NCBI GenBank assembly: GCA_949282845.1
Contig: CASDQF010000020.1
Coordinates: 1 to 41,458, forward strand
Direction: 5' to 3'
DNA: 41,458 nucleotides
Origin: an uncultured Alphaproteobacteria bacterium
GTDB taxonomy: Bacteria; Pseudomonadota; Alphaproteobacteria; CAAHEQ01; UBA3637
This document shows, in pieces, positions 6,014 through 37,499 of the stretch (its first letter is position 1; every line of letters starts with the position of its first letter). A program made the translations under genes and the position numbers. The notes below the pieces were generated by a model. It worked only from the letters and a program-made list of their open reading frames with translations. It ran no database searches and was not told the DNA's origin.

Positions 6014-6130
6014 TTATTATTCCTCCTGAACAAAAGTATAAAATAAAGAGGACACTTGCAATAAAAAAATTGAAAAACAGTTGCTTTTTGGTTAAAGTGA
6101 GCTCATCTTTTTCTGTAAAGGAGATAAAAA

Positions 6131-7309
6131 ATGGAAATAAAAGAAATTGTAAAAGATGTTTATGCAGTTGGCTCAAAAGATCCACATAGACCTTTGTTTG
6201 ATCAGTTGATGCCATTAAGTGAAGGGACGAGCTATAATTCCTATTTAATTAAAGGGAACGATAAAATAGCATTGATTGATACAGTTTATCCTCCGTTTGA
6301 AGAGGAAATAGAAAATAAACTTAAAAATATGGGAATTGAGCGAATCGATTATATTATTGCGAATCATGGGGAACAAGATCATTCCGGCGCTCTTCCAAAA
6401 TTGTTGGAAAAATATCCAATGGCTAAAATAGTCACAAATACTAAGTGCAAAGAAATTACAATGGGTTTCCTGCCGTTATCTGATGATCAATATGTGGTTA
6501 TTGATGATCGCTCTGAGCTAGATTTAGGTGGAAAAACACTACAATTTATTTTTGCACCATGGGTTCATTGGCCAGATACAATGTTTACTTTTTTGAAAGA
6601 AGATGGCATTTTATTTTCGACTGATTTTTTTGGGGCCCATGCGACTAACTTTGATTTATTTTGGGAAAATGATCCGTCGATTATTCCTTTAGCTAAAGGG
6701 TATTATGCTGAAATTATGATGCCGTTTGCGCGTATTTTCCAAAAATATTTACCGATGGTCGAAGCGTTAAATCCGACCATGATTGCTTCTTCACATGGTC
6801 CTATTTATCGTCAACCGAAGTTTATAATTGACTTATACAAAGAATGGAGTGGCGCTCATAAGAAAAATCAAGTTGTGATTGTTGCTGTTTCTATGTATGG
6901 CAGTACGACACAGATGGTTGATTATTTAAAAGAACAGTTGGAAAAGCAAGGCGTGACAGTTAAATTATACGATGCTGTTCATTTAAATATGAATGCATTA
7001 GCTTGCGATTTGGTCGATAGCGCCGGTCTGATTGTAGCAACGCCTACTGTTTTAACAGGACCTCATCCGGCTGTTGTAGAGTCAATTTTCTTGGCTAATG
7101 TTTTAAAACCGACATTAAAATATGTTGGTTTAATAGGTTCTTATAGCTGGGGAACAATGGTGGCTCAGAAAGTTAAAGAAATGTTGGGTAATTTAAAAGA
7201 CACAACAATTTTAGAGCCTGTTTTATCTAAGGGCACACCTAAAGAGCAAGATTTCGAAGCATTGAATAAGCTTGTTGAACAGATTGAGCAAATTCATAAA
7301 GAATTATAG
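6131..7309 (+). CDS. fprA: A-type flavoprotein (FprA/ROO family), O2 or NO reductase
   Basis: This 392-residue protein has two domains. The N-terminal metallo-beta-lactamase fold keeps all seven di-iron ligands: H79, E81, D83 and H84 (HGEQDH), H146, D165 and H222. The C-terminal flavodoxin domain starts near residue 247 with the FMN phosphate loop SMYGSTTQM (254-262). This is the minimal class A arrangement with no fused rubredoxin or flavin reductase, so an external electron donor such as rubredoxin or F420H2-type partner is required; none is in the window. These cytoplasmic enzymes reduce O2 to water or NO to N2O and are typical of anaerobes and microaerophiles. The start has AAAGGAG 8 bases upstream. 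A hairpin terminator follows directly. Whether O2 or NO is preferred cannot be read. Confidence 0.92.
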   Translation: MEIKEIVKDVYAVGSKDPHRPLFDQLMPLSEGTSYNSYLIKGNDKIALIDTVYPPFEEEIENKLKNMGIERIDYIIANHGEQDHSGALPKLLEKYPMAKIVTNTKCKEITMGFLPLSDDQYVVIDDRSELDLGGKTLQFIFAPWVHWPDTMFTFLKEDGILFSTDFFGAHATNFDLFWENDPSIIPLAKGYYAEIMMPFARIFQKYLPMVEALNPTMIASSHGPIYRQPKFIIDLYKEWSGAHKKNQVVIVAVSMYGSTTQMVDYLKEQLEKQGVTVKLYDAVHLNMNALACDLVDSAGLIVATPTVLTGPHPAVVESIFLANVLKPTLKYVGLIGSYSWGTMVAQKVKEMLGNLKDTTILEPVLSKGTPKEQDFEALNKLVEQIEQIHKEL

Positions 7310-19003: not shown

Positions 19004-19927
19004 TCAATATTTTTTGTAAAAAGTTTTTTCTTTTATTTTGGGTTTTTGAATAGTTATTGCTTCCGAACCGGAAACGACATCAATCAATTCTTCAGTAATG
19101 GCCTCTTGTCGTTTTTGTTGATATTCTTGATTCATTTGTTCAAGACTTTCATCAATATTTTTTTCTGCGTTTTGCATATTAATCATTCGAGCATGATGTT
19201 CAGCGGCTAATGAAAAAGTTAATGCACTGGATAGTAAAATCATTAAATACTCACGGATTAAAGTTGAGAACATTTCCTTAGCGGGAATTGTAACCATGGG
19301 GATATTATTTGTCGGCCAGGGTTTATTTTTAAGATTAGCATAAGCTTTTTCAGGAAAAGGAATTAATTTGACTTGTTCAATTCGTGTTGGTTGTCCAGTT
19401 TCTCTTTTGTGATAAAATACTAATACACGATTGACTTTATGAATTCGCATAGCTTCTTCGATACGAATGATGACTGTTCCGGCGATGCTATTAACAACTT
19501 TGATAGAGTTGGAAATAGCATATTTAGCAAAAAGAGGAGCTTCTTTTTGTTCTGCCATTACTGCTACACGCTTACCAATAGTAATAAATAAACTGTCTTT
19601 TAAATTCTCTCCATCCGCTTCAATTATTTCTGCAGCTTTATTAATGATTTCTTTGTTAAATTTTCCAACCAAACCATTATCTGAACCGATAACGATAGCC
19701 AATGTTTTCGTATTTTGTGGCTTAGGCCTTGCCGGAGGTGGAGAAAAACAATCTGTTTTAATTAAAGCATGAAAGGCCGCTAAAATATTTTTTAAGTATT
19801 GTTCTAAGGCAACACCCGCTTGCTCATATTGAAGAATGCTCACAGAGGAAAGCGACTTCATCGTACTGACGATATCGCGTAAGTCTTGTGTTGTTTTAAT
19901 ACGCCTCTGTAGAGTTTCTATAGACAT
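19004..19927 (-). CDS. atpG: ATPase gamma subunit (N-type F1)
   Basis: This 307-residue protein is the central rotor shaft of F1. The N-terminal coil SIETLQRRIKTTQDLRDIVSTM and the C-terminal coil LTFSLAAEHHARMINMQNAEKNI are the conserved antiparallel helices that turn within the alpha3beta3 head. It is about 20 residues longer than common F-type gamma, mainly at the C-terminus (tail KIKEKTFYKKY). It is the last gene of the operon, as in N-ATPase operons where atpG follows atpA. Its start lies 3 bases after the atpA stop. No separate delta gene exists in the operon, as expected for this type. Tandem terminators follow. Confidence 0.9.
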   Translation of the reverse strand: MSIETLQRRIKTTQDLRDIVSTMKSLSSVSILQYEQAGVALEQYLKNILAAFHALIKTDCFSPPPARPKPQNTKTLAIVIGSDNGLVGKFNKEIINKAAEIIEADGENLKDSLFITIGKRVAVMAEQKEAPLFAKYAISNSIKVVNSIAGTVIIRIEEAMRIHKVNRVLVFYHKRETGQPTRIEQVKLIPFPEKAYANLKNKPWPTNNIPMVTIPAKEMFSTLIREYLMILLSSALTFSLAAEHHARMINMQNAEKNIDESLEQMNQEYQQKRQEAITEELIDVVSGSEAITIQKPKIKEKTFYKKY

Positions 19928-19930
19928 ATT

Positions 19931-21445
19931 TTAAAGAATCCTTTCACGTTTCAGAGCTTTTTTGAAAGCATCTAACATTTTCTCTTGTGTTTGAGGAGAA
20001 AGCTTTTCTCTTGATAAAACAGCTTCAGTTTCTTTTTGAAAATCAGTTTGCATAACGGTTTGAATAATTTTTTGAGCTTTTTGATTTTTTTCTTCATCTA
20101 GACCATCTAACAAACCAGCATTTGTTGCTATGAAAATAGCAATTTGATCTGTTACTTTCATAGGCTGAAATTGACGTTGTTCTAATACCAATCGAATAGC
20201 GCGTCCCCTATCAATTTGTTTTTGAGTTTCTTCATCCAGCTGCGTTCCGAAACGAGTAAAAGATTCCAACTCTTCGAATTGAGAATAAAATAATTTTAAA
20301 GGACCAATCAAAGCTTTATAAGCCGGCAGTTGAGCATCTCCTCCGACACGAGAAACAGAACGTCCTGTATCAATGGCCGGCATTATTCCCTTTTGGAATA
20401 AAGGAGCGGATAAATAGATTTGACCATCCGTAATGGAAATAATATTTGTCGGAATATAAGCAGAGATATTACCGGCCTCCATTGAAACGATAGGTAAAGC
20501 TGTCAAAGAGCCGCCACCCAATTTTTTAGATAAATGAGTCGAACGTTCCAGCAAACGAGAATGAATGTAAAAAATATCTCCGGGAAAAGCTTCTCGTCCG
20601 GGAGGACGACGTAAGAGAAGGGACATTTCTCGATAAGCTCTGGCATGATTGGTTAAGTCATCATAAATAATTAGAACATCTTTTCCTTGTTCCATAAAAT
20701 ATTCACCAATAGTCGTTGCAGCATAAGGCGCAATATATTGCATACCTGCTTCATCTTCTCCAGAAGCAACAACAACAATAACGTGCTGCATAACACCATA
20801 TTTTTTTAATTGAGCAATAACGCGAGCTACAGAAGAAGCTTGTTGTCCGATTGCACAATAAATAGAAATGACATTTGTCTCTTTTTGATTGATGATCGTA
20901 TCAACAGCAATTGCTGTTTTACCTGTTTGTCTATCTCCCAGAATTAATTCACGTTGTCCTCTTCCAATCGGCGTGAAAGAATCAACGGCTTTCAAACCGG
21001 TTTGCAGCGGTGTATCAACCGGAGCTCTGTCCATAATCGGATAAGCTTCACGTTCAATCGGACGACGCTCTTTTGTTGAAATAGGCCCTTTTCCGTCCAG
21101 AACGGTTCCTACAGGATTGATAACTCGACCTAATAAATCATTTGAAACAGGAATATCTAAAATACGATTTGTTCGTGTCACTTTATCTCCAGCTTTTAAG
21201 TGGTCCGGATTGTCAAGAAAGACGACACCGACTGAGTTTTGTGATAAAGATTGAACCATACCAGTCGTATTACCGGGAAATAAAAGCATTTCATCCATTT
21301 TTACATTCTTAAGTCCTGTGACAACAGCTGTACCGGCAGAAATAGATTGAATAACACTGACTTCTTGTGTTTTTAACATAGCTTTTGTTTGCTTTACACC
21401 TTTTTCAATAACGGTCATCGCTTCAGTTGTGGCTTTTTTCAGCAT
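19931..21445 (-). CDS. atpA: ATPase alpha subunit (N-type F1)
   Basis: This 504-residue protein is the regulatory nucleotide-binding subunit of the F1 head. The Walker A loop is GDRQTGKT (170-177), the F-type alpha signature; Walker B is LIIYDDLTNHARAYREM. The segment PGREAFPGDIFYIHSRLLERS is the conserved interface loop. The length is normal (500-515). The gene lies between atpF and atpG with 2-3 base gaps, all minus. In classic operons alpha follows delta (atpH), but here it follows the long b subunit directly, which is an N-ATPase feature. Nothing in it is unusual. Confidence 0.95.
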   Translation of the reverse strand: MLKKATTEAMTVIEKGVKQTKAMLKTQEVSVIQSISAGTAVVTGLKNVKMDEMLLFPGNTTGMVQSLSQNSVGVVFLDNPDHLKAGDKVTRTNRILDIPVSNDLLGRVINPVGTVLDGKGPISTKERRPIEREAYPIMDRAPVDTPLQTGLKAVDSFTPIGRGQRELILGDRQTGKTAIAVDTIINQKETNVISIYCAIGQQASSVARVIAQLKKYGVMQHVIVVVASGEDEAGMQYIAPYAATTIGEYFMEQGKDVLIIYDDLTNHARAYREMSLLLRRPPGREAFPGDIFYIHSRLLERSTHLSKKLGGGSLTALPIVSMEAGNISAYIPTNIISITDGQIYLSAPLFQKGIMPAIDTGRSVSRVGGDAQLPAYKALIGPLKLFYSQFEELESFTRFGTQLDEETQKQIDRGRAIRLVLEQRQFQPMKVTDQIAIFIATNAGLLDGLDEEKNQKAQKIIQTVMQTDFQKETEAVLSREKLSPQTQEKMLDAFKKALKRERIL

Positions 21446-21447
21446 CC

Positions 21448-22221
21448 TTATTCCCCTTGTTCAATTTGAGCTGTGCCACTCAAGGTGGCGTCTAAATGAG
21501 ATGAAAAATCTTCTAGATAACTTGCTAAATTCCAGGCAATAGTCTTATCTCCGGCTTGGAGCTCGATTCCACAAATAAGACTTGATTTTTTATGTGTAGA
21601 AAAACGAATATCCGGAGGTAATTTTAATAAAGCTTGAGTAGCTTCTTTTAACTCAGCAGAAGGCTTTTCAAAGGCGGTGGTTAAATAAACAAGTCTTGTT
21701 TGTGTTGCTTCATTAAGAAAATTCTTTTTTTCAATAGCAGAAAGAGCTTTTAATTTTTTTTGAAATTGCTTTTCTATTTGAGATTGTAAATTGGCATCAG
21801 CCATATCATTCAAAGCTTTAGCAGCAAAAGTTTTAAAATGAGACACAATCGCATTACGCATTTCTAAATTAAAAGCTTTTTTTTCTAAAGCAAGTTCTTC
21901 TTTCCATTGCTCTCTGCTGTTTGCGACAGATAAACGAGCTTCTTCAGACAGAGTTGATTTCAAAGTTTGTGCTTCTTGGGTTGCTTGTTCTAACAAAGCT
22001 TGACGTTCTTTGTCGAAAGCTTCCACTTTTTGAGCATACAGAGCTTCTTCTGCTTTTGCCGCTTCAGCTGCTTTTTGAGCATCTTGGACATCTTTGAGTA
22101 TTTTAGCTTGCCTTGCGTCAATCATGTCCAATAGAGGTTTGTATAAAAATTTCTTCAATAGCCAAATTAAAATAGCCAAGTTTATAATTTGAGCTAGAAG
22201 AGTAATGAAATCAACTCCCAT
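21448..22221 (-). CDS. atpF: ATPase b subunit with long C-terminal delta-like region (N-type)
   Basis: This 257-residue protein is the peripheral stalk. One membrane helix at the N-terminus (FITLLAQIINLAILIWLLKKFLY, about residues 5-27) carries the typical b-subunit turn. A long Ala/Lys/Glu-rich coiled coil follows (about 35-130). The remaining 120 residues (from about 135) resemble a delta-type domain and end with LICGIELQAGDKTIAWNLASYLEDF, a stretch akin to the C-terminal part of delta. Ordinary b subunits are about 160 residues. The extra length explains the absence of atpH in the operon. Fusion or extension of b with a delta-like part is a known property of N-ATPases; the boundary here is my estimate. 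Confidence 0.88.
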   Translation of the reverse strand: MGVDFITLLAQIINLAILIWLLKKFLYKPLLDMIDARQAKILKDVQDAQKAAEAAKAEEALYAQKVEAFDKERQALLEQATQEAQTLKSTLSEEARLSVANSREQWKEELALEKKAFNLEMRNAIVSHFKTFAAKALNDMADANLQSQIEKQFQKKLKALSAIEKKNFLNEATQTRLVYLTTAFEKPSAELKEATQALLKLPPDIRFSTHKKSSLICGIELQAGDKTIAWNLASYLEDFSSHLDATLSGTAQIEQGE

Positions 22222-22233
22222 GATGGGCTCCTT

Positions 22234-22512
22234 TTACTTAGCCGCCATTTCTACAGCATAATTCCAAAATGGATTAGCATATAAAGTTAAGAAAGCAATT
22301 AACAGTGAATATAAAGCAGATGTTTCTACCATAGCCATAGAAACAAACAAGGTGCTTCGAATTCGGCTTGCTTCGTCAGGTTGTTGCGCCATGGCATGTA
22401 AAGCAGAAGCTGCAGCATTTCCTTCTCCGAATGCAGAACCAATACCTCCGATACCCATACATAATCCCGCTGATAAGATAGAGCATGCTCCGATTAAACT
22501 AATTGCATCCAT
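22234..22512 (-). CDS. atpE: ATPase c subunit with two carboxylates (N-type rotor ring)
   Basis: This 92-residue protein is a hairpin of two membrane helices; the ring of copies carries the ions. Helix 1 has the glycine repeat GLCMGIGGIGSAFGEG with E30; helix 2 has MVETSALYS with E63, T64 and Y68. Relative to the Na+-binding c subunit of Ilyobacter (Gln32, Glu65, Ser66, Tyr70), this one has Glu in place of the Gln and keeps the other ligands. Two glutamates are the hallmark of N-ATPase c subunits. The family was proposed to move Na+, but ion specificity may vary (H+ was argued for one member), so it is open. The start overlaps the atpB stop by one base (TAATG). Confidence 0.94.
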   Translation of the reverse strand: MDAISLIGACSILSAGLCMGIGGIGSAFGEGNAAASALHAMAQQPDEASRIRSTLFVSMAMVETSALYSLLIAFLTLYANPFWNYAVEMAAK

Positions 22513-23282
22513 TATTTTTCTCCTTTCTTGTTTAGTAAATAGTTTTCTTCAACATAAGGCACTTCCGGTGCAACATTTGATGTGTAAACGATTGCCAAAA
22601 GTGCAAAAATATAAGCTTGAATTGTTCCGGTTAAAAGTCCCAATGATTGCATGGTAAGGGGCATTATAAAAGGAATGAAAGCAGTTAAAATCGTTGCAAA
22701 CATAATACCACTTAACATATTACCGAATAAACGAAAAGCCATTGATAAAGCAGAAGCAAAATCACTAAAAATATTCATGGGCAACATAACAGGTGAGGGA
22801 TCAATAAATTTCTTAATATATCCTTTAAAACCGGCATTGCGAATAGCATAAAATGGAATAGCAAAAAAGACGACCAATCCGAAAGCTCCGACAGTGCTGA
22901 GAGAAGCTGTAGGTGGTCGAAACCACGGAATAATCGTTAAAAGGTTGCTCATGGCAATGAACATGAAAAATCCCATAACAAGCCCCATATACTTACGTGG
23001 ATTATCATTACTGATGTCTTTAATTTCACTTCGTAGAAAGCTGACGATTATTTCCATGAAAGTCTGAAAACGTGAAACACGAATAGTGTCCTTTAAATGA
23101 CGGGTCGCCAACCAAGATAAGAATACAAGAATTCCCATGACAATCCATGTTGAAAAAATGGTCATATTGATCGGAATGTTTGCAATGTGAAATACAATTA
23201 TTTCATCAGTATTCTCCAATCCGATGGGAGCTCCTTTCTGCGGTAAAAACTTCATCATAAAATCAGATAACTTATCCCACAT
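22512..23282 (-). CDS. atpB: ATPase a subunit (N-type)
   Basis: This 256-residue membrane protein is the stator channel facing the c ring. The essential arginine is R184 in SMAFRLFGNMLSG. Other family features are the N-terminal membrane helix NMTIFSTWIVMGILVFLSWL, SNLLTIIPWFRPPTASLS, and the last helix with IQAYIFALLAIVYTSNVAPE. Length is normal. It follows atpR, with which it overlaps by 11 bases, and precedes atpE, overlapping by one base. Ions pass through it to the two-glutamate c subunit. The genes are strongly coupled, so subunits should be made in fixed ratio except for c. Confidence 0.95.
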   Translation of the reverse strand: MWDKLSDFMMKFLPQKGAPIGLENTDEIIVFHIANIPINMTIFSTWIVMGILVFLSWLATRHLKDTIRVSRFQTFMEIIVSFLRSEIKDISNDNPRKYMGLVMGFFMFIAMSNLLTIIPWFRPPTASLSTVGAFGLVVFFAIPFYAIRNAGFKGYIKKFIDPSPVMLPMNIFSDFASALSMAFRLFGNMLSGIMFATILTAFIPFIMPLTMQSLGLLTGTIQAYIFALLAIVYTSNVAPEVPYVEENYLLNKKGEK

Positions 23283-23610
23283 GCTTTACCTCTTTTTGAT
23301 TGAGCTCTTTTTTCTTTGCTTTTAAAAAGAAAATTCGGACAAGAATAAAGCCGAGAAAGAAAATAAGCATTTTTAAAGCGTTTCTATCGGCAACTAACAC
23401 CAAAACGCAAAAAAATACAGCGAGTCTAATTAATGTTGATAAAAATAAAAATACGCCTCTCTTTTGTATTTTCGAAAGCTGATTGATTGTCCAAGAAAGA
23501 TTCCAAAAATAAAAAACAGCAGTTAAAATTCCGGCGAAAAAGGCAAGAAGTCCATTTAAAAGAGTTAATTGATTAAACATTATTTCTATGATGCTGGTTG
23601 TACTATTCAT
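23272..23610 (-). CDS. atpR: N-ATPase accessory membrane protein AtpR
   Basis: The frame opens at 23619, but that ATG touches the AAGG ribosome site; the ATG at 23610 is 9 bases from it and is preferred, giving 112 residues. There are about 3 membrane helices: LLNGLLAFFAGILTAVFYFWNL, VFLFLSTLIRLAVFFCVLVLVA and LKMLIFFLGFILVRIFFL, with single Arg residues inside the second and third. AtpR is known only from N-ATPase operons and may help assemble the c ring or a/c interface; no activity is proven. It overlaps atpQ by 8 bases and atpB by 11. Together with atpQ it is the strongest mark of an N-type operon. Confidence 0.85.
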   Translation of the reverse strand: MNSTTSIIEIMFNQLTLLNGLLAFFAGILTAVFYFWNLSWTINQLSKIQKRGVFLFLSTLIRLAVFFCVLVLVADRNALKMLIFFLGFILVRIFFLKAKKKELNQKEVKHVG

Positions 23611-23936
23611 GTTTATCATCCTTTATTTTGGAAAGTTCTTCGCGATATTGTTCATCAGCTTTTTCAATTCCTTCGCGTTTAACCCATAAATAACCATAAT
23701 AAAGACCTAGTACAAAACCAACAAACAGTAGATTAAGCCGCCATGAAATAGGTTCCATTGGATAATTTTCATCTATCCAAGCGCCTATAAAAATACCAAT
23801 TAAAATTGGGATAATAATAATGCCACCCAAAATACCAATAATACCAACATTCACATATAAGGAACGATTGCTTCGATTCGCTAATAATTTTGCTTTTCGA
23901 ATCAAAAGCTGTTCAACTTTTTTGTCATCTGTTTCA

Positions 23937-23950
<14 letters not shown>
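23603..23950 (-). CDS. atpQ: N-ATPase accessory membrane protein AtpQ (AtpZ-like)
   Basis: This 115-residue protein has a charged N-terminus, then a two-helix membrane hairpin: YVNVGIIGILGGIIIIPILIGIFIGAWID (about residues 32-60) and NLLFVGFVLGLYYGYLWV (about 73-92). That is the pattern of AtpQ and of the AtpZ/AtpI relatives. IGAWIDE is typical of the family. Its role is uncertain; AtpI/AtpZ members aid c-ring assembly or Mg2+ uptake. It overlaps atpC by 14 bases and atpR by 8. The order atpD-atpC-atpQ-atpR-atpB-atpE-atpF-atpA-atpG matches N-ATPases exactly. Confidence 0.85.
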
Positions 23951-25814
<1,864 letters not shown>

Positions 25815-25831: not shown

Positions 25832-26953
25832 TTAAAAGTATTGAGAACCTACAGCTTCGTTCACTGAATTAAATCCCTTTTGCTTTAACAAAAGAGCTAA
25901 CTTTTGATTAATATCATTAGCTATATCCGGTCCATTGTATAACAAAGCCGTGTGAATTTGAACAAGGGTTGCTCCGGCACAAATTTTTCGGAAAGCATCT
26001 TCTCCATTAAAGACACCACCAGAGGCAATAAGCGTTATTTTTCCATTAGTTGCTAAATAAAATTTGCTTAAAAGTAAAGTAGATGGTTCCATAAGAGGCT
26101 TACCTGCGATAAAGCCTTTCATGTGAGAATTTCCAAGTCGTTGTTTTTGGCTTTTTGAGCCTGAAAAACCAGCAATGATAACAGCATCTACTCCTTCTTG
26201 CATAAACACATCTGCCAGTAATGGAATATTCGCATCTGTTGTTTCAATAGGTATTTTGACAACTAGTTTTGGTGTTAAAATAGGAGCATGCCTTTGAATA
26301 TGATTTTTCATCGTTCGTAATAAAGAAGAGAGTTGATAGGGCATATGTATTAAGTTTGTAATGGGCATACTTGGATGAGATAAGTTTAATGTAATAAAAT
26401 CACAATAAGGCGCAACTAATTGAACGCTCTTTAAAACATCTTGTTCTAACATTGTATAAAATTCTTTATTGTCTTTATCTTCTAACTCTAAAGAAGACGA
26501 AATACTAACTCCGGCAATGTGAGGTAAGCGCCTTCTGTCAATTAATTGTTTTTGTAAATATTGAATTCCTGGATTAGGCCAGGAGGGCGTATCAACTAAA
26601 ATAGCTTTTTGTTTGGTGAGGAAAAAAGTTTGTTCCATTTCCCTATCTTTATGATAAGTAAATGTTCCGAACTCAGAAAAACCAAACCCAATACGAACGA
26701 GTTCATCATTATATTTGAAGGAATTATCAAATCCGGCAGAAATACCAATAGGATTTTGAAATGTTTTTCCAAGAGCCTGTGTATTTAAAACAGGATTACG
26801 AGGAATTTCTGTTAAAAAAGCCTGATCCGTAATTCCCCAATATAAAAGACGTCTTGCAGTGTTTGGGTTTGTTTTTTTGATAAAAAACCATATAAAAAGA
26901 AATACTTTTTTCGAAAGTTTTTCAATAAAAGATGGTTTTCTAGGATCGGCCAT
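25832..26953 (-). CDS. Dihydroorotate dehydrogenase (class 2)-like flavoprotein with altered active site
   Basis: This 373-residue protein matches the overall layout of PyrD: a basic N-terminal membrane-associating helix (about 8-26), then a TIM barrel. FMN phosphate-binding features are clear near the end (ASGGVFNGEDA, ICAGATLVQIHTALLYNGP). But the substrate motifs differ. AGFDKN is AGFDNS (73-78), so the FMN-contacting Lys is lost. The class 2 base motif N-x-S-S-P-N-T reads NLSHPSM (190-196), replacing the catalytic Ser by His and the next Asn by Ser. The TNTT motif is missing; the region reads IIAGFSGSK. It probably does not oxidise dihydroorotate as usual. It is coupled to metG (3-base gap). 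What it does is unknown. Confidence 0.75.
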   Translation of the reverse strand: MADPRKPSFIEKLSKKVFLFIWFFIKKTNPNTARRLLYWGITDQAFLTEIPRNPVLNTQALGKTFQNPIGISAGFDNSFKYNDELVRIGFGFSEFGTFTYHKDREMEQTFFLTKQKAILVDTPSWPNPGIQYLQKQLIDRRRLPHIAGVSISSSLELEDKDNKEFYTMLEQDVLKSVQLVAPYCDFITLNLSHPSMPITNLIHMPYQLSSLLRTMKNHIQRHAPILTPKLVVKIPIETTDANIPLLADVFMQEGVDAVIIAGFSGSKSQKQRLGNSHMKGFIAGKPLMEPSTLLLSKFYLATNGKITLIASGGVFNGEDAFRKICAGATLVQIHTALLYNGPDIANDINQKLALLLKQKGFNSVNEAVGSQYF

Positions 26954-26956
26954 AAC

Positions 26957-28657
26957 TTATCCCTCAGCCTCTTTATATTTAACAGCTAATTCTTGAATAC
27001 GTTCCGGCGAGATTTTATTAAATAAAAGAATTGGTTCTTGAAGTTCATGACCTGCTTTTAAGAATGATAACTCTACATCTGCTTTTTCTCTCGGCCATAC
27101 TATTTGCTCTTTAACTCCGATTAAACCCAGCATTTTTTGTGCTGTTTCCGGCATAATTGGTGAAGCCAATAAAGCATACAGACGAATAAGATTAATAGCA
27201 GTTCTGAGAATAACTGCAGCATGTTCTTTATCTGTTTTGACAACTTTCCAAGGTTCGTTGCGTGCAATGTAGTTATTTCCTTCTACCCATAGTTCGCGTA
27301 AAGCAATCATTGCTTTGCGGAATTCCATTTTTTGCATGTAAGTTGTATAATTTTCTTTAAGTTCATCAATTTTTGCGTAAAGAGCTTTTTCTTGGGAAGT
27401 TTCATTGCCGCCTTCTGGAATAACTTGGCCAAAATTAGAAATTGTCATTTTTAAAACACGATTGATGAAATTACCTAAGACATCATTTAAATCTTTGTTA
27501 ATCGTTGCAGCAAAATTTTCGAAGTTGAAAGAGGAATCCGAAGATTCAGGAGCATTTGCCATCAACCAATAACGCCAATAATCGGCAGAAAATTCGTTAA
27601 TCGCATCATCTGCAAAAACGCCTCTATGCTCTGATTTTGAAAATTTTCCGCCGTTGAATGTTAAATAACTCATTCCTTTTAAGAAGTCTACCTTTGTCCA
27701 GTTTTCACCGGTTCCCATGAGTGTGGCAGGGAATGTAATGGTATGATAAGGAACATTATCTTTTCCCATAAATTCAACATAGTAAACATCTTCCGGATTT
27801 AGCCACCAATCTTCCCAATGACGTTCTTCAGGCTTTTCATCACTCCATTGTTTCGTAATGCCGATATAGCCGATTGGTGCATCAAACCAGACATAGAAGA
27901 CTTTGTTTTCAAAACCTTCTTTTGGAACTGGAAATCCCCATTTTAAGTCACGTGTGATACAACGAGGTTCTAGACCTTCTTTCAGCCATTTTTGTGCAAT
28001 AGAGTAAACTAAATCGGGCCATAGAAATTCTTTGGGAGCAAGCCATTTAGCTAAAGCATCTTGTAAGGCTGTTAATTTTAAGAAGAGATGTTTTGTTTCT
28101 CGAACTTCCAAGTTAGTTGAACCTGAAATAGTACTATGAGCATTGATTAACTCAGTTGGTTCAAGTACTTTTGTGCAGTTTTCGCACTGGTCGCCTCTTG
28201 CTTTGTCATAGCCACAATACGGGCATGTTCCCGTAATATAACGGTCAGCTAAGAATTGATTATCATCGACAGAGAATATTTGTTTAATTGTTTTTTCTTC
28301 AATAAAGCCGTTTTTATCTAATTCTTTATAAACTCTGTATGTAATTTCTTTGTTTTGTTCAGAACTGGTTCGACCGAAGTAGTCAAAAGATAAGTTAAAA
28401 GCTTTATAAATATCTTGATGAATTTTATGATATTTATCGCAATAATCTTTCACATCCATTCCGGCTTTTAATGCTCCGACTTCAGATGTTGTTCCGTGTT
28501 CATCGGTTCCACAGATATAAAGGACATCAGCCCCTTGCATTCGCATAAACCGTGCATAAACATCAGATGGTAAAAGGCAGCCAATCATATGTCCTAAATG
28601 AGGTTGACCGTTGATGTAAGGTAATGCGCTTGTAATGAGGTATTTTTTCTTATCCAT
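26957..28657 (-). CDS. metG: Methionyl-tRNA synthetase
   Basis: The frame opens at 28726, but the ATG at 28657 (MDKKKYLITS) is the likely start: AAGGAT lies 8 bases upstream and the family begins there. This gives 566 residues. The HIGH motif is HLGH in NGQPHLGHMIG; the KMSKS motif is KFSKS (GGKFSKSEH). A zinc knuckle with two CxxC pairs (CPYCGYDKARGDQCENC) marks the MetG1 type. The anticodon-binding helical domain follows. The C-terminal beta-barrel tRNA-binding domain of some MetGs is absent, as in the short form. It charges tRNAMet in the cytoplasm. It diverges from rpoZ and precedes the PyrD-like gene. Confidence 0.95.
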   Translation of the reverse strand: MDKKKYLITSALPYINGQPHLGHMIGCLLPSDVYARFMRMQGADVLYICGTDEHGTTSEVGALKAGMDVKDYCDKYHKIHQDIYKAFNLSFDYFGRTSSEQNKEITYRVYKELDKNGFIEEKTIKQIFSVDDNQFLADRYITGTCPYCGYDKARGDQCENCTKVLEPTELINAHSTISGSTNLEVRETKHLFLKLTALQDALAKWLAPKEFLWPDLVYSIAQKWLKEGLEPRCITRDLKWGFPVPKEGFENKVFYVWFDAPIGYIGITKQWSDEKPEERHWEDWWLNPEDVYYVEFMGKDNVPYHTITFPATLMGTGENWTKVDFLKGMSYLTFNGGKFSKSEHRGVFADDAINEFSADYWRYWLMANAPESSDSSFNFENFAATINKDLNDVLGNFINRVLKMTISNFGQVIPEGGNETSQEKALYAKIDELKENYTTYMQKMEFRKAMIALRELWVEGNNYIARNEPWKVVKTDKEHAAVILRTAINLIRLYALLASPIMPETAQKMLGLIGVKEQIVWPREKADVELSFLKAGHELQEPILLFNKISPERIQELAVKYKEAEG

Positions 28658-28697
28658 AGTGATATCCTTTATAAAAGTCTTTAAAAAATAACACTTC

Positions 28698-28726
28698 ATC
28701 ATAAAGCGTTTAAAAAATAAAAGCAA
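28698..28726 (-). promoter_or_regulatory. Candidate promoter of metG
   Basis: On the minus strand, TTGCTT (plus 28721-28726), a 17-base spacer and TATGAT (plus 28698-28703). It lies 41 bases upstream of the metG start chosen here, and within the longer open frame, which supports the shorter start. Confidence 0.45.
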
Positions 28727-31778: not shown

Positions 31779-33771
31779 TTTCTAGGAAAAAAGATTGTAA
31801 AGTCGGATGGAAATAAAGAGGTTTTTCTGTTTCCTCTAAATTTATTTTCAATAATGTTTGTTTGTATGGTTGTTTTAATGCTTTTAATGTTGCAGCTTCA
31901 ATAATTGCTTTTTGGTTGAACAAAGCAGTTGTTGCCGGTAATTGTTTTATTAAGTGAAGAGCTTTTAAGGCTTCTTGAGGTTTACGGTTAAGAAGTGCGA
32001 TAAGAGAGGCTTCCAGAGCTAAAATCTGTTGTTCTTCCCCGTGTAAACGATGTTCAGCTAAGGCTGTACTGATTTGATAAGCATTATCCAACAAATCGAG
32101 AGAAATCAAATCATGGACAATCAAATGCATCATTTTATTTCCCGTTTGATCATTTGGAATAAGTTCTTTAAATTCATTAAAGAAAGCAATACGTTCTAGG
32201 GGGGATGCGATTTGGTTATCAAATAATGCTTTTGTAAAAAGAGTTGTCATTTTATCCGGGACATCTGAAACAGGAGTTATGGTTAAAAGAGCTTTGTAAG
32301 CTTGAAGGGCTTTTGTGTAATTATTTTGAGCGCTGTATAATTCAGCTAATCTATTTAAGAGTTCTGGTTCAATTTTTGTATTTCGTAATCCAAAAGCCAT
32401 GTTTTCAAATATACGAATAGCTTCTTTAGGTTCAATGTCTCCGTTTTTAAGAGCTAAATCATTTTTTTTGAAAATTGCTGTTTGTTGAATGAAAGAGAAG
32501 GGTCCTTGAATAGCTTTGTCATAGTTTGTTAATGCTTCCAGTGTTTTATTTTCATTTTCTGCGTTCACTCCCATTAAGAAATGATAGAGCTGTGTTTGAT
32601 AAGGTGTTTTTTTTGTTTTAGCAAAGTCTTCTAAAAGGCTTTTTTGTGCAGCAATATCTTTTCTGTTGAAAGCTTTTTGGAGTGCTTTTGAAAGAATTGT
32701 GGCTTTGAGAGGGTCAGAAAAATCCATTTGTTGAATATATGAGGTGAGTAATCGTTTTTTAGGGTTTACAAGATTTTTCCAAAAGTAGAGAGAGAAATTG
32801 ACATTTTTTACTTGATTGAAGAGTTTAAGAGCTTCTTCATCGCGGTTTAACAGAGATAGCGCAACAGCCTTTAAGCAAATAGTTTCTTCTTTTTCTCCGG
32901 TGTTGGAAAGAATTTCTAAGGCATGTGCCGGTAAGTTTTGAGATAAGTAAAGACGCGCCATTTCCAAACGAAAAGTTTCTTTTTGTTCTGCAGGAGCATT
33001 GGAAATTAGAGATTGAAGTCTATTTTTTTCCGTAAAAAAGTCTTGTTGTGTAAAATGTTTGTAAATTGAAAAATCTAACAGTTCTTGTTTATTCTCCCAT
33101 TCGAATGGTATCTTTTCATTTTCGAAAAGACCGTTTGGAGCAGTCAGTAAGAAGCCGTTTTCTTCTTCTTGCATAAATAGTTTAGAAGTTTGGGGAGCCA
33201 AAGCAATTCCTTGAATAGTCGGAAGAATCTTCAAACTTGGAACGCTATATTCACTAGAGACATATTCTTCAGGAAGAGATAACGGAAAAGCAATTAATCG
33301 TTCTTGTGTGACAGGATCTATCCATTCGACAGGTTTTGTTCTTTCCGTTTTGAAGTAAATGCCTTTTTCTTTTTTTAAAGGAATAATAGGCAAGGTGTTA
33401 GTATTTTCTTTTTTTTCAGCTAAAGAAAAAATCCATAAATTTCCTTTTTTCTGGACTTGAGGAAATAAATTTTCAGGAAGGACTAATTGAAGGATTGTAT
33501 TTGTTTTGCTGGGGATAACCTGAATTTTTTCAAAAAAAGATGAGTTTGATAAAGGATTATCTTGTGTCCAAAGTAGACGATCAAAAATAATCCAAGTAAA
33601 TCCATTTCGGGTAAAAACAGCCGATTGAACTTTGTCATCTAAAGAGAATAAATAATCAGTTACTTTTGTGTTATCATCTGTTAAACGAGTTTGGATTTGC
33701 GGCATAGAAAAAGCGTAACAAATTTTGCTAATCAAAAGAGATAAAATTAAATAAAAGGCTCGTTTTATCAT
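31750..33771 (-). CDS. Large periplasmic TPR-like protein of the flagellar operon
   Basis: This 673-residue protein begins with a signal peptide (MIKRAFYLILSLLISKICYAFS, cleaved near residue 21). Residues 25-120 contain beta-rich segments (FTWIIFDRLLW, LQLVLPENLFP, NLWIFSLAEKK). From about 235 to 660 it is helical with repeated TPR-like pairs such as RLAELYSAQNNYTKALQAYKALL, AVALSLLNRDEEALKLFNQV and LALEASLIALLNRKPQEALKALHLI. It is the last gene of the fliL-fliM-...-MotB-like operon, overlapping its upstream neighbour by 4 bases, so a role in motor or flagellar assembly is likely (inference). Its end overlaps the convergent acpS by 29 bases. I cannot name it; its exact function is unknown. 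Confidence 0.65.
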   Translation of the reverse strand: MIKRAFYLILSLLISKICYAFSMPQIQTRLTDDNTKVTDYLFSLDDKVQSAVFTRNGFTWIIFDRLLWTQDNPLSNSSFFEKIQVIPSKTNTILQLVLPENLFPQVQKKGNLWIFSLAEKKENTNTLPIIPLKKEKGIYFKTERTKPVEWIDPVTQERLIAFPLSLPEEYVSSEYSVPSLKILPTIQGIALAPQTSKLFMQEEENGFLLTAPNGLFENEKIPFEWENKQELLDFSIYKHFTQQDFFTEKNRLQSLISNAPAEQKETFRLEMARLYLSQNLPAHALEILSNTGEKEETICLKAVALSLLNRDEEALKLFNQVKNVNFSLYFWKNLVNPKKRLLTSYIQQMDFSDPLKATILSKALQKAFNRKDIAAQKSLLEDFAKTKKTPYQTQLYHFLMGVNAENENKTLEALTNYDKAIQGPFSFIQQTAIFKKNDLALKNGDIEPKEAIRIFENMAFGLRNTKIEPELLNRLAELYSAQNNYTKALQAYKALLTITPVSDVPDKMTTLFTKALFDNQIASPLERIAFFNEFKELIPNDQTGNKMMHLIVHDLISLDLLDNAYQISTALAEHRLHGEEQQILALEASLIALLNRKPQEALKALHLIKQLPATTALFNQKAIIEAATLKALKQPYKQTLLKINLEETEKPLYFHPTLQSFFLEIKESLEQPQ

Positions 33772-34376
33772 AAGAACCTCTCTCGATTATAAGGATAAAT
33801 AATAATTTCAATTTGAGGTATGGTTAAATTTCGATTTTCATGAGCAAGGACGGGAATATCATCCTTATATCCACCTTTTTTCAGTTCATTTGAAACACTG
33901 GCGGCATAAGATATGCCTTGTTCAAGTGCTGACGGTGTCGAAGTGATGACAGCAATCTTATTGGATAGGTTATTTAATAAATACCCCAGTTCTTGAATAT
34001 TTTTTTGAAAGATATCATGAATAATCATTTTTTCCTGATCGATAAAGACAGTGATGGGAAGTCGAAGGATTAATTCGTCATTTGAAAGAGAAAATTCATA
34101 TTCCGGCATATTGATGCGTTCATCTGATAAAACTTTATAAAGGTATGTTAAGTTAACTCCTCTTTTCATAAAGGTCGGCTTGGCAGATAAAGTGAGTTTG
34201 CTATTTGTTCCGTCATTTAGTCCAATAAAGGGTGTTCGTTCTAAAGTAGGTTGTTCATATAGATTTGGTGAACCCATGGCAAAAAGCATAACAAAAAATG
34301 TTAATAAAAGAGTCATTAAATCTGTAAAAGTTAATAACCATGCTTTTTTTAAAGGAAAAGTAATCATTTTTTTCAT
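33768..34376 (-). CDS. MotB/OmpA-like protein
   Basis: This 202-residue protein resembles MotB, the stator protein that anchors the motor to peptidoglycan. The N-terminus has the MotB pattern W-L-L-T-F-T-D-L-M-T-L-L-L-T-F-F in the single membrane helix, with D19 at the place of the ion-binding Asp (Asp32 of E. coli MotB). The rest (from about 95) looks like a reduced OmpA-C domain: LSNDELILRLPITVFI, a helix around LGYLLNNL, and SALEQGISYAASVSNELKKGGY. The usual NxxLSxxRA motif is degraded to ISYAASVSNELKKGG, so peptidoglycan binding is uncertain. It overlaps its neighbours by 4 bases each. No MotA gene is in the window. Confidence 0.7.
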   Translation of the reverse strand: MKKMITFPLKKAWLLTFTDLMTLLLTFFVMLFAMGSPNLYEQPTLERTPFIGLNDGTNSKLTLSAKPTFMKRGVNLTYLYKVLSDERINMPEYEFSLSNDELILRLPITVFIDQEKMIIHDIFQKNIQELGYLLNNLSNKIAVITSTPSALEQGISYAASVSNELKKGGYKDDIPVLAHENRNLTIPQIEIIIYPYNRERFL

Positions 34377-35008
34377 GATTTATCTCCTTTAGGAGTTGCT
34401 TTTAAAGTAAATGTAACAAAATTTGCATTTCCTCTTTTGAACCCAACGGCAGTTTGTTTCGTTGATACACCCAGATTTTTTAATTTTTCAGCAACAGCTT
34501 GAGCGCGACGTGTCGCTAAACTCGAAAAAATAGGATAACTTTCTTGAGCCGGTAAGTCTACATAAGTTAAAAAATCAACTTCATAAGTATAATAATTATC
34601 TTTTGCTTTTAAATATTGAGCCAGTTTTTGCCAAAATAGTTCTTGTTTCGAGGAGAGCTTTTCCTGAAAAGGAATGAAAAGAACTTCAGTTGGTATACTT
34701 GCAGAAAGTATATGTCCAGTTAAATTTTGCTCTATTTGAACGTTGGAAAAATTCGAGGAAAATAGTTCTCGATTTAGAGAAATAAAACCATTTGGAATAA
34801 ACGAAGGTTCAAAAAAAGCATTTTGTGTAAATCGCTGTGGTTTAAAAGCTGTCCAAAGACTTTCTCGTACAGCATTTACTTTGATTTCTTCAAAGGTTGA
34901 AAAAGAAAGTAAATAACTGAAAAAACAAAAAATAACCAAAATCAATGATAAAAAAATAAAGGAGAAGGAACCTTTTATGTTCGATTCGGAAAATGGAAAA
35001 GTTTTCAT
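34373..35008 (-). CDS. Second MotB/OmpA-like protein without the motor Asp
   Basis: This 211-residue protein has one membrane helix near the N-terminus (FSFIFLSLILVIFCFFSYLLSFS, about 15-37) but no Asp inside it. Its C-terminal half (about 105-205) fits an OmpA-C-like domain: ASIPTEVLFIPFQEKLSSKQE, YYTYEVDFLTYV, and SSLATRRAQAVAEKLKNLGV, the last matching the usual S..RA..V...L...G motif well. So it could bind peptidoglycan as an OmpA-like accessory, while the neighbour supplies the ion-path helix. The two genes overlap by 4 bases. A split of labour between two MotB-like proteins is inference. It is preceded by motE with 8 bases between. Confidence 0.6.
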   Translation of the reverse strand: MKTFPFSESNIKGSFSFIFLSLILVIFCFFSYLLSFSTFEEIKVNAVRESLWTAFKPQRFTQNAFFEPSFIPNGFISLNRELFSSNFSNVQIEQNLTGHILSASIPTEVLFIPFQEKLSSKQELFWQKLAQYLKAKDNYYTYEVDFLTYVDLPAQESYPIFSSLATRRAQAVAEKLKNLGVSTKQTAVGFKRGNANFVTFTLKATPKGDKS

Positions 35009-35016
35009 TTTTCCTC

Positions 35017-35592
35017 CTATTTTTTTACCGGTTTATTTAATTCCTCTGTCAAAAAAACAGCCGTTTGTGTATCCATTTTTTCTAAGATTGCGGCAGCTTT
35101 TAAAGGGGGTAATTGGCGCATAATTTGCATTTTTAAATTTGGTTCTAAAGTTTGTAATAACCTGGCAGCTTCCTGAGGACGCATATTAGCATAGATTTTG
35201 ACAAGATGAGTGGTTTCATCATCGGGTAAATGAAGCGCTTGTTCTTCTAATTTTTTTTGCAGTATTTGAAGTTCCTTTTTTTGAATGGTAATTTGTTGCT
35301 CTAATTGTGATAATTCTTTTTGTTTTTCTATTAAAGAATGTTCACGTTCATCTAAATCAGCTCTTCGTTTGGCCAATTGTTGCAGAACAAGAATTTCATT
35401 TTCTGTTAAAGTTTGTGGTATTGTCGCTTGTGGGGTCATACTAATGGAATTTTGAGCTTGAGCTTGTGTCGGACCAATTATTTCTTCTTCTGTTAAATTA
35501 AACCAAGCGTCTCCAATTCTGAAACTAAGAGATAAAACGGCGAGGAACAAAAAAATAGGTATAAAACGTAAGAAAAAAATTGTCTTTTTCAT
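35017..35592 (-). CDS. motE: MotE-like flagellar motor protein
   Basis: This 191-residue protein has a signal or anchor segment (FFLRFIPIFLFLAVLSLSF, about 5-23), then a coiled coil (RADLDEREHSLIEKQKE to about residue 118), and a C-terminal MgtE-N-like domain HLVKIYANMRPQEAARLLQTLEPNL followed by LPPLKAAAILEKMDTQTAVFLTEELNK. This is the MotE pattern of alphaproteobacteria, where MotE chaperones the periplasmic motor protein MotC. It lies between the DUF6468 gene (4-base overlap at its start) and the two MotB-like genes. MotC itself is not recognisable here. The family call is by architecture and context. Confidence 0.75.
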   Translation of the reverse strand: MKKTIFFLRFIPIFLFLAVLSLSFRIGDAWFNLTEEEIIGPTQAQAQNSISMTPQATIPQTLTENEILVLQQLAKRRADLDEREHSLIEKQKELSQLEQQITIQKKELQILQKKLEEQALHLPDDETTHLVKIYANMRPQEAARLLQTLEPNLKMQIMRQLPPLKAAAILEKMDTQTAVFLTEELNKPVKK

Positions 35593-36035
35593 GCTCCCTC
35601 TCTTAATCGTTTTAGCGCATTTACCAGTTCTTTTTCGGCTTCTGATTGGTAGAGATCAACAGATGAATGTTCGAAAGAAGTTTTATTTTGTGCAAAAGAA
35701 TGATACTCGGAAGCAGAATGAAAAAAAGGAGTATGATTCTTTTCCTCAAAAATTTTATTTTGTGCCGTTTTATCTAAAACTAAGGCTAAGTCATCCCGAA
35801 CTAAAGAAGCTTTGTTTATTTCTTCTCGTAGTTGTTCTGTCATCATATTAGTTGATTTTTGTAATTGGGTTAAAGCACGTTCTGTGTTTTGAGAAATTTG
35901 TTTGAAAGAAGCGGAAGCTTTTAAAATTTCTTTTTTTGTTTCTTTGAAATTGGATAAACGATAATTTAAAATCATTCCGTAAATAATAGCGATAACTAGT
36001 AAGGTAATGATGACGAGGTTAAGTGTGTTTTCCAT
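35589..36035 (-). CDS. DUF6468 flagellar-cluster protein
   Basis: This 148-residue protein has one N-terminal membrane helix (NLVIITLLVIAIIYGMILNYRL, about 5-26), then a helical coiled-coil region (FKQISQNTERALTQLQKSTNMMTEQL) and a variable tail. Alphaproteobacterial proteins of this form (DUF6468) sit next to fliM in flagellar clusters; the role is unknown. Its start overlaps the fliM stop by one base (TAATG) and its end overlaps motE by 4 (ATGA), so it is co-translated with the motor genes. A role in motor assembly is inference. Confidence 0.7.
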   Translation of the reverse strand: MENTLNLVIITLLVIAIIYGMILNYRLSNFKETKKEILKASASFKQISQNTERALTQLQKSTNMMTEQLREEINKASLVRDDLALVLDKTAQNKIFEEKNHTPFFHSASEYHSFAQNKTSFEHSSVDLYQSEAEKELVNALKRLREGA

Positions 36036-36985
36036 TACTCTTCCTCCAGCATACTTTTTTCAATCGCCACGGCAACTTGTTTTCCGATGATTGTGACTTT
36101 TCCTTTAAAAAGATTGATGTCTCCGCATAGGATTTGAATAGGTTTATCTTCGAAATAAGAAAGAGGAAGCGTATCACCTTTTTTCCAATTAAAAACAGAT
36201 TTCAGTGGAACTGTTTTCTTATCTAAAACAGCTTTTAATTCCATTGGAACTTTTAAAAACGCATGAGCCATTTGAGAGGTGAAAGGAGTAATGGTTTCAG
36301 CTTGTTCTTCAGCTTCATACAGTTCATCAACCTTCATTTTATGCAAAAGGTAAGCAGGTAGAACGATGTCCATTCGTCCTCCCCGTTTATCTAACTTTAC
36401 ATCCAATCTGGCAATCATCATATCGCAAGCCGGAGGTGCAATAAGAGCTGTTTGTGGATTTGTGTCTAGTCCGTCGAATAAAAAATCTATTTGAAAAGAA
36501 CGTGTCAAATCGCTCATCATATCCATAAATAAACGTTTAATAATATCTTGTTCGATTCGTGTATAAGCGCGTCCTTCTAGTTGCATAGCAGATGTTCCTC
36601 GTCGTCCGCCGAGAGTCATATCAATGACGGAATAAGCTAGATTAGCATCCATAGAGGCTAGTCCTTCCTCATTCCATTCGGGCAAATGAAAAAAACCGAT
36701 GAGGGAAGGGTGTTCAAGCGTATCAAGATAGGCTCCCATTTGTCCTTTAATAAAAGTCTGGACTTTGACAGAAATATTTTCTGCTTCTGTGATATTTCGA
36801 AAAGTCGTTGTGACGTGCCGAGAAAAAGAATCAATATATTTTTCAAGTTCAGGCAGGGGTTTTACGCCTTGATTTGTCTTGACAAGTTGCATAGGTGACT
36901 TATTTTCCGGCTCTTGAGGCGATAAAAGAGCATCAATTTCTTCTTGTGTTAGAATGTTGCTCAGATCATGTGCATTCTCTATCAT
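36035..36985 (-). CDS. fliM: Flagellar motor switch protein FliM
   Basis: The frame opens at 37048, but the ATG at 36985 is the likely start: AGAGGAAT precedes it and the family begins with the CheY-binding motif LTQEEIDALLS (residues 13-23 of MIENAHD...). This gives 316 residues. The middle CheC-like domain is clear (AYSVIDMTLGGRRG, and ARLDVKLDKRGGRMDIVLPAYLLHKM). The C-terminal SpoA-like domain has LKVPMELKAVLDKKTVPLKSVFNWKKGDTLPL and IQILCGDINLFKGKVTIIGKQVAVAIE. It forms the C-ring and switches motor rotation. It follows fliL directly, with one base between. Confidence 0.94.
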   Translation of the reverse strand: MIENAHDLSNILTQEEIDALLSPQEPENKSPMQLVKTNQGVKPLPELEKYIDSFSRHVTTTFRNITEAENISVKVQTFIKGQMGAYLDTLEHPSLIGFFHLPEWNEEGLASMDANLAYSVIDMTLGGRRGTSAMQLEGRAYTRIEQDIIKRLFMDMMSDLTRSFQIDFLFDGLDTNPQTALIAPPACDMMIARLDVKLDKRGGRMDIVLPAYLLHKMKVDELYEAEEQAETITPFTSQMAHAFLKVPMELKAVLDKKTVPLKSVFNWKKGDTLPLSYFEDKPIQILCGDINLFKGKVTIIGKQVAVAIEKSMLEEE

Positions 36986-36986
36986 T

Positions 36987-37499
36987 TTAATTCCTCTGCT
37001 GAACAAACATTTCTTTGAATAAAACATCGTTAATATGAGCCGGAGCAATTAAAAAGTTGATTCGCTCCAATAAAGCTTCTTTTAAACGATATAATCCACC
37101 GGTTTCTTGTAATTCCTCCGGTCTAACTTCTCTTAAATAGGTTATAATACTATCTTGAATTCGGGGCATAACAGCCAAAATATCTTTTTTATCGGTTGGA
37201 CGATTCATCTCAAGGGCTATGCTTGTTCGTAAAATTGAAAAATTTTGTCGATGATCATTTAAGTTAACTTGAAAAGGAGATAATTCTAAAAAGTAGAGCC
37301 CATCTTTTCCTATAAGCGTTGTTTCTTCTTTGGGTTGAACGGAGATTTTCGGATAAAATGTATCAGGAATGCTGACAAATAAATAACCACCAATCAATCC
37401 AATCAAGAAAACGAACGACAAGCCTAAAAGCCATTTATAAGACTTTCGATTCATTTCTGTTGATGGTTCTAAAAGCTCCTCATTTTCATCTAATTTCAT
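36987..37499 (-). CDS. fliL: Flagellar basal-body protein FliL
   Basis: This 170-residue protein has a charged N-terminus, one membrane helix (WLLGLSFVFLIGLIGGYLFV, about 24-43), and a periplasmic domain with YFLELSPFQVNLNDHRQNFSILRTSIALEMN and IQDSIITYLREVRPEEL, the FliL/stomatin-like fold. FliL supports the stator at the flagellar base. It starts the operon; its end is one base from fliM. AAGGTGA precedes the ATG. A CtrA-like box lies about 50 bases upstream, fitting CtrA control of flagellar genes in alphaproteobacteria. Length is normal. Confidence 0.9.
   Translation of the reverse strand: MKLDENEELLEPSTEMNRKSYKWLLGLSFVFLIGLIGGYLFVSIPDTFYPKISVQPKEETTLIGKDGLYFLELSPFQVNLNDHRQNFSILRTSIALEMNRPTDKKDILAVMPRIQDSIITYLREVRPEELQETGGLYRLKEALLERINFLIAPAHINDVLFKEMFVQQRN

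Follow-up and report, generated by a model that had tools for sequence, protein, structure and literature searches.

Why does an uncultured alphaproteobacterium keep, directly behind its methionyl-tRNA synthetase gene metG, an intact gene for a protein that has the fold of a dihydroorotate dehydrogenase (DHODH) without the dihydroorotate site? The gene, here called ex-pyrD, lies in the window (the whole stretch of DNA analysed, 41,458 nt), which comes from a 1.19-Mb genome that is 96% complete (G000; G codes denote genomes, and L codes the loci or proteins compared). A first-pass annotation had described its product as a PyrD-like protein with a lost active site, possibly repurposed. Our analyses support this reading and widen it to the whole order and to three genomes beyond it; what the new function might be is the part that we infer.

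Fold and ligand sites of ex-PyrD

The ORF starts with ATG and runs through 373 codons with zero internal stops, 3 nt from metG, so that the gene is indeed intact and next to metG, as first described (Table 1). An AlphaFold2 model of ex-PyrD, built from 29 relatives, had a mean pLDDT of 89.8 and a pTM of 0.90. Its best structural match was human DHODH (2prl, Z 46.7, rmsd 2.0, 347 aligned residues, 28% identity, residues 14-373), and its structural alignments to class-2 DHODHs begin at residues 6-28. The fold of the model is therefore class 2, N-terminal helices included. Phe18 and Trp22 in these helices rank with the best conserved residues of the family. A sequence search of the PDB likewise found class-2 DHODHs to be closest (best E 5.7e-39).

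The expectation that automatic annotation would call the gene pyrD held in part. Pfam DHO_dh (PF01180) matches ex-PyrD at 130.9 bits (cut-off 27), and some relatives pass TIGR01036, the NCBI class-2 equivalog (L019 with 211.7 and L018 with 281.2 bits), but TIGR01036 alone would not assign the name to ex-PyrD itself (178 bits versus a cut-off of 200), and every NCBIfam class-2 PyrD model matched it under its own cut-off. If the general domain is used for annotation, or in some members the equivalog, bacteria auxotrophic for pyrimidines would be assigned a pyrimidine gene. Other families fitted less well. The catalytic base of class 1 DHODHs is a Cys; ex-PyrD has His in its place and scored 49.6 bits with TIGR01037 (cut-off 270). 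PreA, a barrel of the same superfamily that some genomes of the order encode as a separate gene, carries NFSCP and INT motifs and ends in a ferredoxin-like part; both are missing from ex-PyrD, which scored 27 bits with NF006183 (cut-off 335). A tRNA dihydrouridine synthase was considered because of metG, and no Dus family was among the NCBIfam matches of ex-PyrD at E 0.001. No RNA features were found at the gathering threshold in the whole window.

Table 1. Positions in the window of ex-pyrD, its sequence elements and metG
Feature	Position	Strand	Evidence
ex-PyrD, DHODH-fold protein of 373 aa without dihydroorotate site	25832..26953	(-)	ORF and translation; Pfam DHO_dh 130.9 bits; AlphaFold2 pLDDT 89.8; human class-2 DHODH Z 46.7
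Residues 9-42, two N-terminal helices at the position of the class-2 quinone-tunnel domain	26828..26929	(-)	DSSP of model; structural alignment; conservation
Residues 73-78, AGFDNS, replaces AGFDKN	26720..26737	(-)	Translation, alignment
Residues 140-144, RRRLP, newly conserved, N-terminal barrel face, before strand 3	26522..26536	(-)	R140 and R141 invariant in profile A1; conservation gain
Residues 190-196, NLSHPSM, replaces NxSSPNT; H193 at catalytic-Ser position	26366..26386	(-)	His in 34/36 orthologs
Residues 222-228, HAPILTP, newly conserved, N-terminal face, before strand 5	26270..26290	(-)	Conservation gain
Residues 261-265, AGFSG, replaces TNTT	26159..26173	(-)	G262 in 35/36 orthologs
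Residues 310-335, FMN-phosphate region (strand 7 GG, then AGATLVQIHT)	25949..26026	(-)	Translation; G312 32/36, G313 27/36
metG, methionyl-tRNA synthetase, 3 nt upstream of ex-PyrD	26957..28726	(-)	NCBIfam methionine--tRNA ligase, TIGR00398 557.2 bits; start codon mechanical

The lists of FMN- and substrate-contact residues used here are, apart from S215, N145 and N217, ones that we take to be right, with Asn212 and Asn284 as presumed substrate contacts. A passage of PMC6611227 gives the catalytic Ser of class 2 DHODH as S175 in E. coli and S215 in human, and one of PMC12534982 gives Asn145 and Asn217 as dihydroorotate contacts. In ex-PyrD, seven of the eight substrate-contacting side chains are replaced, the sole one retained being Asn190 (human Asn212). 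Specifically, Ser215 has become His, and Lys100, Asn145, Asn217, Thr218, Asn284 and Thr285 are changed as well, with Asp121, Ser195 and Gly262 at the positions of Asn145, Asn217 and Asn284. The motif changes first noted by eye were all recovered, AGFDNS at residues 73-78, NLSHPSM at 190-196, and the missing TNTT as AGFSG (261-265).

The replacement is a property of the family. We compared 36 members of the order with 59 other proteins, out of 105 distinct proteins; PreA-like or PreA proteins (L012, L020, L022, L023 and L024) and the fragments L050, L086 and L088 were left out, as were L018 and L133, which are shown separately (another comparison of the 105 took 87 rows). The 36 orthologs retain 0 to 4 of the eight dihydroorotate-contact side chains, and the 59 comparison proteins retain a mean of 7.83, with a minimum of 6. 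The catalytic Ser and substrate Asn were said to be among the losses, and indeed Ser215, Asn145, Asn284 and Thr285 are lost in all 36 orthologs. The Ser215 position is His in 34, Asn in one and Thr in one; the Asn284 position is Gly in 35 and Ala in one; Asn145 and Thr285 are retained in none; and a Lys is still found at the Lys100 position in 19. Chance or a misreading of the motifs can be set aside, as the change is seen in 36/36 orthologs and is absent from the 59 comparison proteins. A class 1 DHODH or a PreA can be rejected as well, by both scores and motifs.

The FMN phosphate site had been described as preserved, and the C-terminal region that forms it (ASGGVFNGEDAF...AGATLVQIHTA) is retained in ex-PyrD. 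Among the orthologs, the FMN positions Lys255 (33/36), strand-2 Thr (36/36) and Gly306 (36/36) are kept, and Asn181 (12/36) and Tyr356 (2/36) are weakly retained. The phosphate region has eroded in some subclades, where Gly313 is Cys or Ser (9/36) or Gly312 is Asp or Ala (4/36). Compared with class 2 DHODH (PyrD and human DHODH), ex-PyrD is alike in its whole fold and in the Lys255, strand-2 Thr and Gly306 positions, and differs in the His for the catalytic Ser, in its replaced substrate positions and in a genome where neither the pathway nor a quinone prenyltransferase was found. A DHODH-like protein from a Porticoccaceae metagenome-assembled genome (NORP16; L133, positions 6001-6810) has had its active-site motifs replaced independently (NLSRPGS, no TNTT) and is possibly a second case of a lost site.

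Distribution, missing pathway and descent

A family profile search found an ex-PyrD ortholog in 41 of the 43 genomes and in all 13 genera of the order. The named relatives are uncultured Alphaproteobacteria, several of them from rumen or gut. The genomes without an ortholog are G066 (63% complete) and G031 (91% complete); as the latter lacks a copy, ex-PyrD is not indispensable everywhere. Profile A1 drew on 29 of 31 proteins of group A (all those known at the time except L050 and L051; some tails were trimmed, and L018 is contained), and its invariants include Arg140 and Arg141. L086 carries ex-pyrD as two ORFs. L037, L045, L075, L080 and relatives, all of one genus, have long C-terminal tails on ex-PyrD, which are Pro/Gln-rich in L037 and L045.

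The first-pass annotation had suggested looking for a second, true pyrD, and besides ex-pyrD the 96%-complete G000 has no DHODH-family (PF01180) gene. Aspartate carbamoyltransferase (ATCase, pyrB) was found in two of the 43 genomes of the order, G003 (L057) and G020 (L056), and in 14/14 control genomes. PyrE exceeded its cut-off in one of 43 (G011, 109.9 versus 106.8; controls 14/14), and OMP decarboxylase (pyrF) in 0 of 23 members of the order; it was present in all three other genomes tested and in 14/14 controls. In G000, profile searches found no ATCase, no over-cut-off PyrE and no OMP decarboxylase. Thus, nearly all members of the order have neither a source nor a sink for dihydroorotate, and with the rest of the pyrimidine pathway missing and no second DHODH, ex-PyrD cannot do the job of PyrD in G000. 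Uracil salvage by UPRTase has no general support, full-length UPRTase being found in 5/43 genomes and not in G000. The solitary ATCase gene of L056 has no pyrimidine genes around it; by eye, its neighbours are kdsB-like on one side and ffh-like on the other.

Cofactor and acceptor supply are affected as well. Class-2 DHODHs pass their electrons to a quinone, and the synthesis of ubiquinone or menaquinone needs a UbiA prenyltransferase. A UbiA-family prenyltransferase exceeded its cut-off in one of the 43 genomes of the order and in G000 there was none; home-made quinone is probably absent in nearly all members, and an imported quinone is possible as acceptor. Riboflavin kinase was found in one of the 43 (controls positive in 10/14, the four silent ones being archaea), and FAD-type flavoproteins (Pyr_redox_2) were found in all 24 genomes of the order tested, 22 of them over cut-off. 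As these flavoproteins are kept, flavins are presumably imported, and the lack of the kinase in 42/43 cannot serve as proof that ex-PyrD is flavin-free. The combination implies either flavin import or an unrecognised kinase.

In a tree of 52 rows, 20 members of the order together with G034, G092 and G111 were separated from 29 motif-bearing DHODHs by a branch with 100/100 support, the clade standing on a long branch; the first-pass annotation had named a place within a functional DHODH clade as evidence against its reading, and the tree gave the opposite. Outside the order, these three genomes, which belong to other families, alone exceeded 300 bits among the 385 genomes of the class searched (418.9, 357.6 and 343.2; next 278); the A1 score of G034 is partly by construction since A1 contains L018, and G092 and G111 are not in A1. 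All three have Gly for Asn284 and have lost Lys100, with Asn, Ser and Cys at the Ser215 position. This suggests a sequence of changes in which Asn284 became Gly and Lys100 was lost while Ser215 was variable (Asn, Ser, Cys), and His followed in the order. An over-cut-off ATCase was found in none of the three intermediates and in 4/4 comparison genomes; by completeness (G092 95%, G034 81%, G111 78%) the absence is firm for G092 only. A fragment that G034 carries is more like an ornithine carbamoyltransferase, and G034 retains an OMPdecase-family gene (130.7 bits). In all three intermediates the gene adjoins a TIGR01459 HAD hydrolase gene, as in many ordinary alphaproteobacterial pyrD loci. The pair is therefore no new functional link, and its sharing points to descent from pyrD itself and not from another barrel.

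Selection and the conserved surface

Purifying selection on ex-pyrD is strong. Between G000 and G002 the gene gave a dN/dS of 0.066 (dN 0.091, dS 1.39), near that of rpoZ (0.061), with atpD (0.034) and spoT (0.023) lower; metG values involving G002 were not used (gapped-match artefact), and several G001 dS values are saturated. Within the protein, the FMN-contact sites of the 36 orthologs lie at a mean 72nd conservation percentile (permutation p 0.0006) and the dihydroorotate-contact sites at the 52nd (p 0.40), His193 (98th) and Gly262 (89th) being exceptions among the latter.

Constraint has moved from the catalytic to the opposite face of the barrel. Relative to the comparison set, conservation changed by +0.165 in the six residues before the strands (N-face), by −0.112 in the six after them (C-face) and by +0.014 elsewhere (permutation p 5e-5), the faces being defined by secondary structure rather than coordinates. 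The 59 comparison proteins are taxonomically broader than the order set, so that some of the gain on the N-face may come from loops of different length; such differences are unlikely to be the whole effect, because the catalytic face has lost conservation and the change elsewhere is near zero. The gains, at RRRLP 140-144, A181-C184, AP(I)xxP 223-228 and D256, precede strands 3 to 6, a run of adjacent barrel strands.

In 32 of 33 loci of the order, the gene immediately upstream is metG on the same strand, with gaps of -44 to 14 nt (mechanical starts); the sole exception is L076 (G022), where metG is not beside ex-pyrD. Neighbours were counted over 31 loci (L018, L086 and L088 dropped). Beyond metG, 22 of these share an rpoZ-type gene, so that a common gene order explains part of the link to metG; the gene downstream of ex-pyrD is variable, the commonest being common to 6 of 31.

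Proposed role and rival explanations

For ex-pyrD, the fold, the loss of both substrate site and pathway, purifying selection, a single clade and a conserved place after metG are established. We propose, at a probability of roughly 0.6, that ex-PyrD was inherited vertically, lost its dihydroorotate site and has been retained for a new role; that it now does a different job is very probable. The ancestor would be an alphaproteobacterial class-2 DHODH gene, whose dihydroorotate site would have been lost when the lineage gave up pyrimidine (and quinone) synthesis. Judging from its sequence, ex-PyrD may still bind FMN, which would be salvaged because riboflavin kinase is also missing. The N-terminal helices would hold the protein on the membrane, and RR-x-LP, APYCD and AP-x-x-x-P, placed before strands 3, 4 and 5, would make the N-terminal face of the barrel a new docking surface. 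The whole may be a barrel that holds FMN and has gained a binding surface on the side away from the old active site, the His perhaps serving new chemistry.

The conserved His193 at the old base position would suit a redox reaction on another, non-pyrimidine substrate, to which we give a little under an even chance; a non-catalytic, FMN-binding scaffold in place of a redox enzyme is a more tentative suggestion. It is doubtful that, in a whole order of host-associated Alphaproteobacteria and the three further genomes, PyrD has turned into a flavin-carrying docking protein that gave up its catalytic face, made a conserved interface of the opposite one, is tied in expression to methionyl-tRNA synthetase and possibly signals flavin or redox state to translation; the cells would be unable to make their own pyrimidines, quinones or FMN. 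The idea of a repurposed flavoenzyme is supported by the family-wide loss of the site, and the FMN sites are still conserved, but a claim of catalysis goes beyond the evidence. Several observations weigh against repurposing: the eroded Gly313 and Gly312 in some subclades; the missing riboflavin kinase in 42/43, which makes FMN supply uncertain although FAD-type flavoproteins are present; the absence of a copy from G031; the Lys that persists at the Lys100 position in 19/36; a pocket whose variation among genera fits a single new substrate poorly; and the OMPdecase-family gene of G034 and the ATCases of G003 and G020.

The main rival, which we regard as unlikely but serious, is a pseudoenzyme, a DHODH-fold scaffold without catalysis that binds a partner, for example MetRS, through the new N-terminal face. 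The shift of constraint to that face, pocket residues that differ between genera, the erosion of FMN-phosphate residues, the fixed position behind metG and the missing riboflavin kinase would all agree with it. Against it, the FMN sites are conserved above the average site, His193 is among the most conserved residues, and the metG adjacency may be ordinary operon conservation, as the shared rpoZ-type gene indicates. Catalytically dead paralogs are reportedly kept as partners in trypanosomatids (the AdoMetDC prozyme and deoxyhypusine synthase), likewise with the enzyme fold retained after catalysis was lost; there a live paralog is the partner, and here none was found in the genome.

Oxidation or reduction of another dihydropyrimidine (dihydrouracil or dihydrothymine) for pyrimidine salvage, from which pyrimidine auxotrophs would gain, has a precedent. 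As a passage of PMC10395836 has it, DHODH-like proteins proved to be dihydrouracil oxidases; these are class-1A DHODH-like, and the fungi concerned carry a class-2-like DHODH gene as well. They too are DHODH-family proteins that are not DHODHs, whereas ex-PyrD is of class 2 descent in bacteria without another DHODH or the pathway. We consider this route improbable, since the ring-contact Asn residues are lost, the order's true PreA proteins keep NFSCP and INT at the aligned places, several members have PreA besides, and the PreA model scores far under cut-off. Slightly less credible still is a DHODH with compensating active-site changes that uses imported dihydroorotate or feeds orotate to salvage. 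The complete class-2 fold with its N-terminal domain, the partly conserved FMN sites, the PyrE-like protein of G011 just over cut-off and the OMPdecase-family match of G034 would suit it, but the catalytic Ser and all ring-contacting Asn but one are gone, the dihydroorotate sites are no longer constrained, and substrate producer and consumer are absent in nearly all genomes, as is the quinone prenyltransferase in 42/43. A decaying relic or assembly artefact, as might be supposed from gene loss in reduced genomes, the two ORFs of L086 and the missing copy of G031, is hardly conceivable for a gene present in 41 genomes and 13 genera with a dN/dS of 0.066 and clear family-specific invariants.

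As a gene probably kept for a new role, ex-pyrD shows cleanly how a metabolic enzyme can outlast its pathway, across 13 genera and with intermediates in other families; our search of open-licence PMC papers found no report that such bacteria retain a DHODH whose pathway is gone.

Directly after ex-pyrD the window holds an N-type ATPase operon (19004-25756, minus strand; AtpR PF12966 59.9 bits; alternate F1 beta 747.7 bits versus a cut-off of 752), which among the loci compared occurs there only in the source genus. The window may belong to the reduced gut order Rs-D84, whose published description (PMC12306168) fits in part: nucleotide synthesis and respiratory chains are missing there, and some members have an ATP synthase. 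Against this assignment, the paper reports no flagellar machinery, whereas the window has FliM and FliL. At 33771-35008 together with 35020-37499 (both on the minus strand), MotB is apparently split into two adjacent ORFs, a membrane plug part and an OmpA part, which adjoin MgtE_N (MotE-like), FliM and FliL genes, a set of flagellar genes in a reduced lineage.
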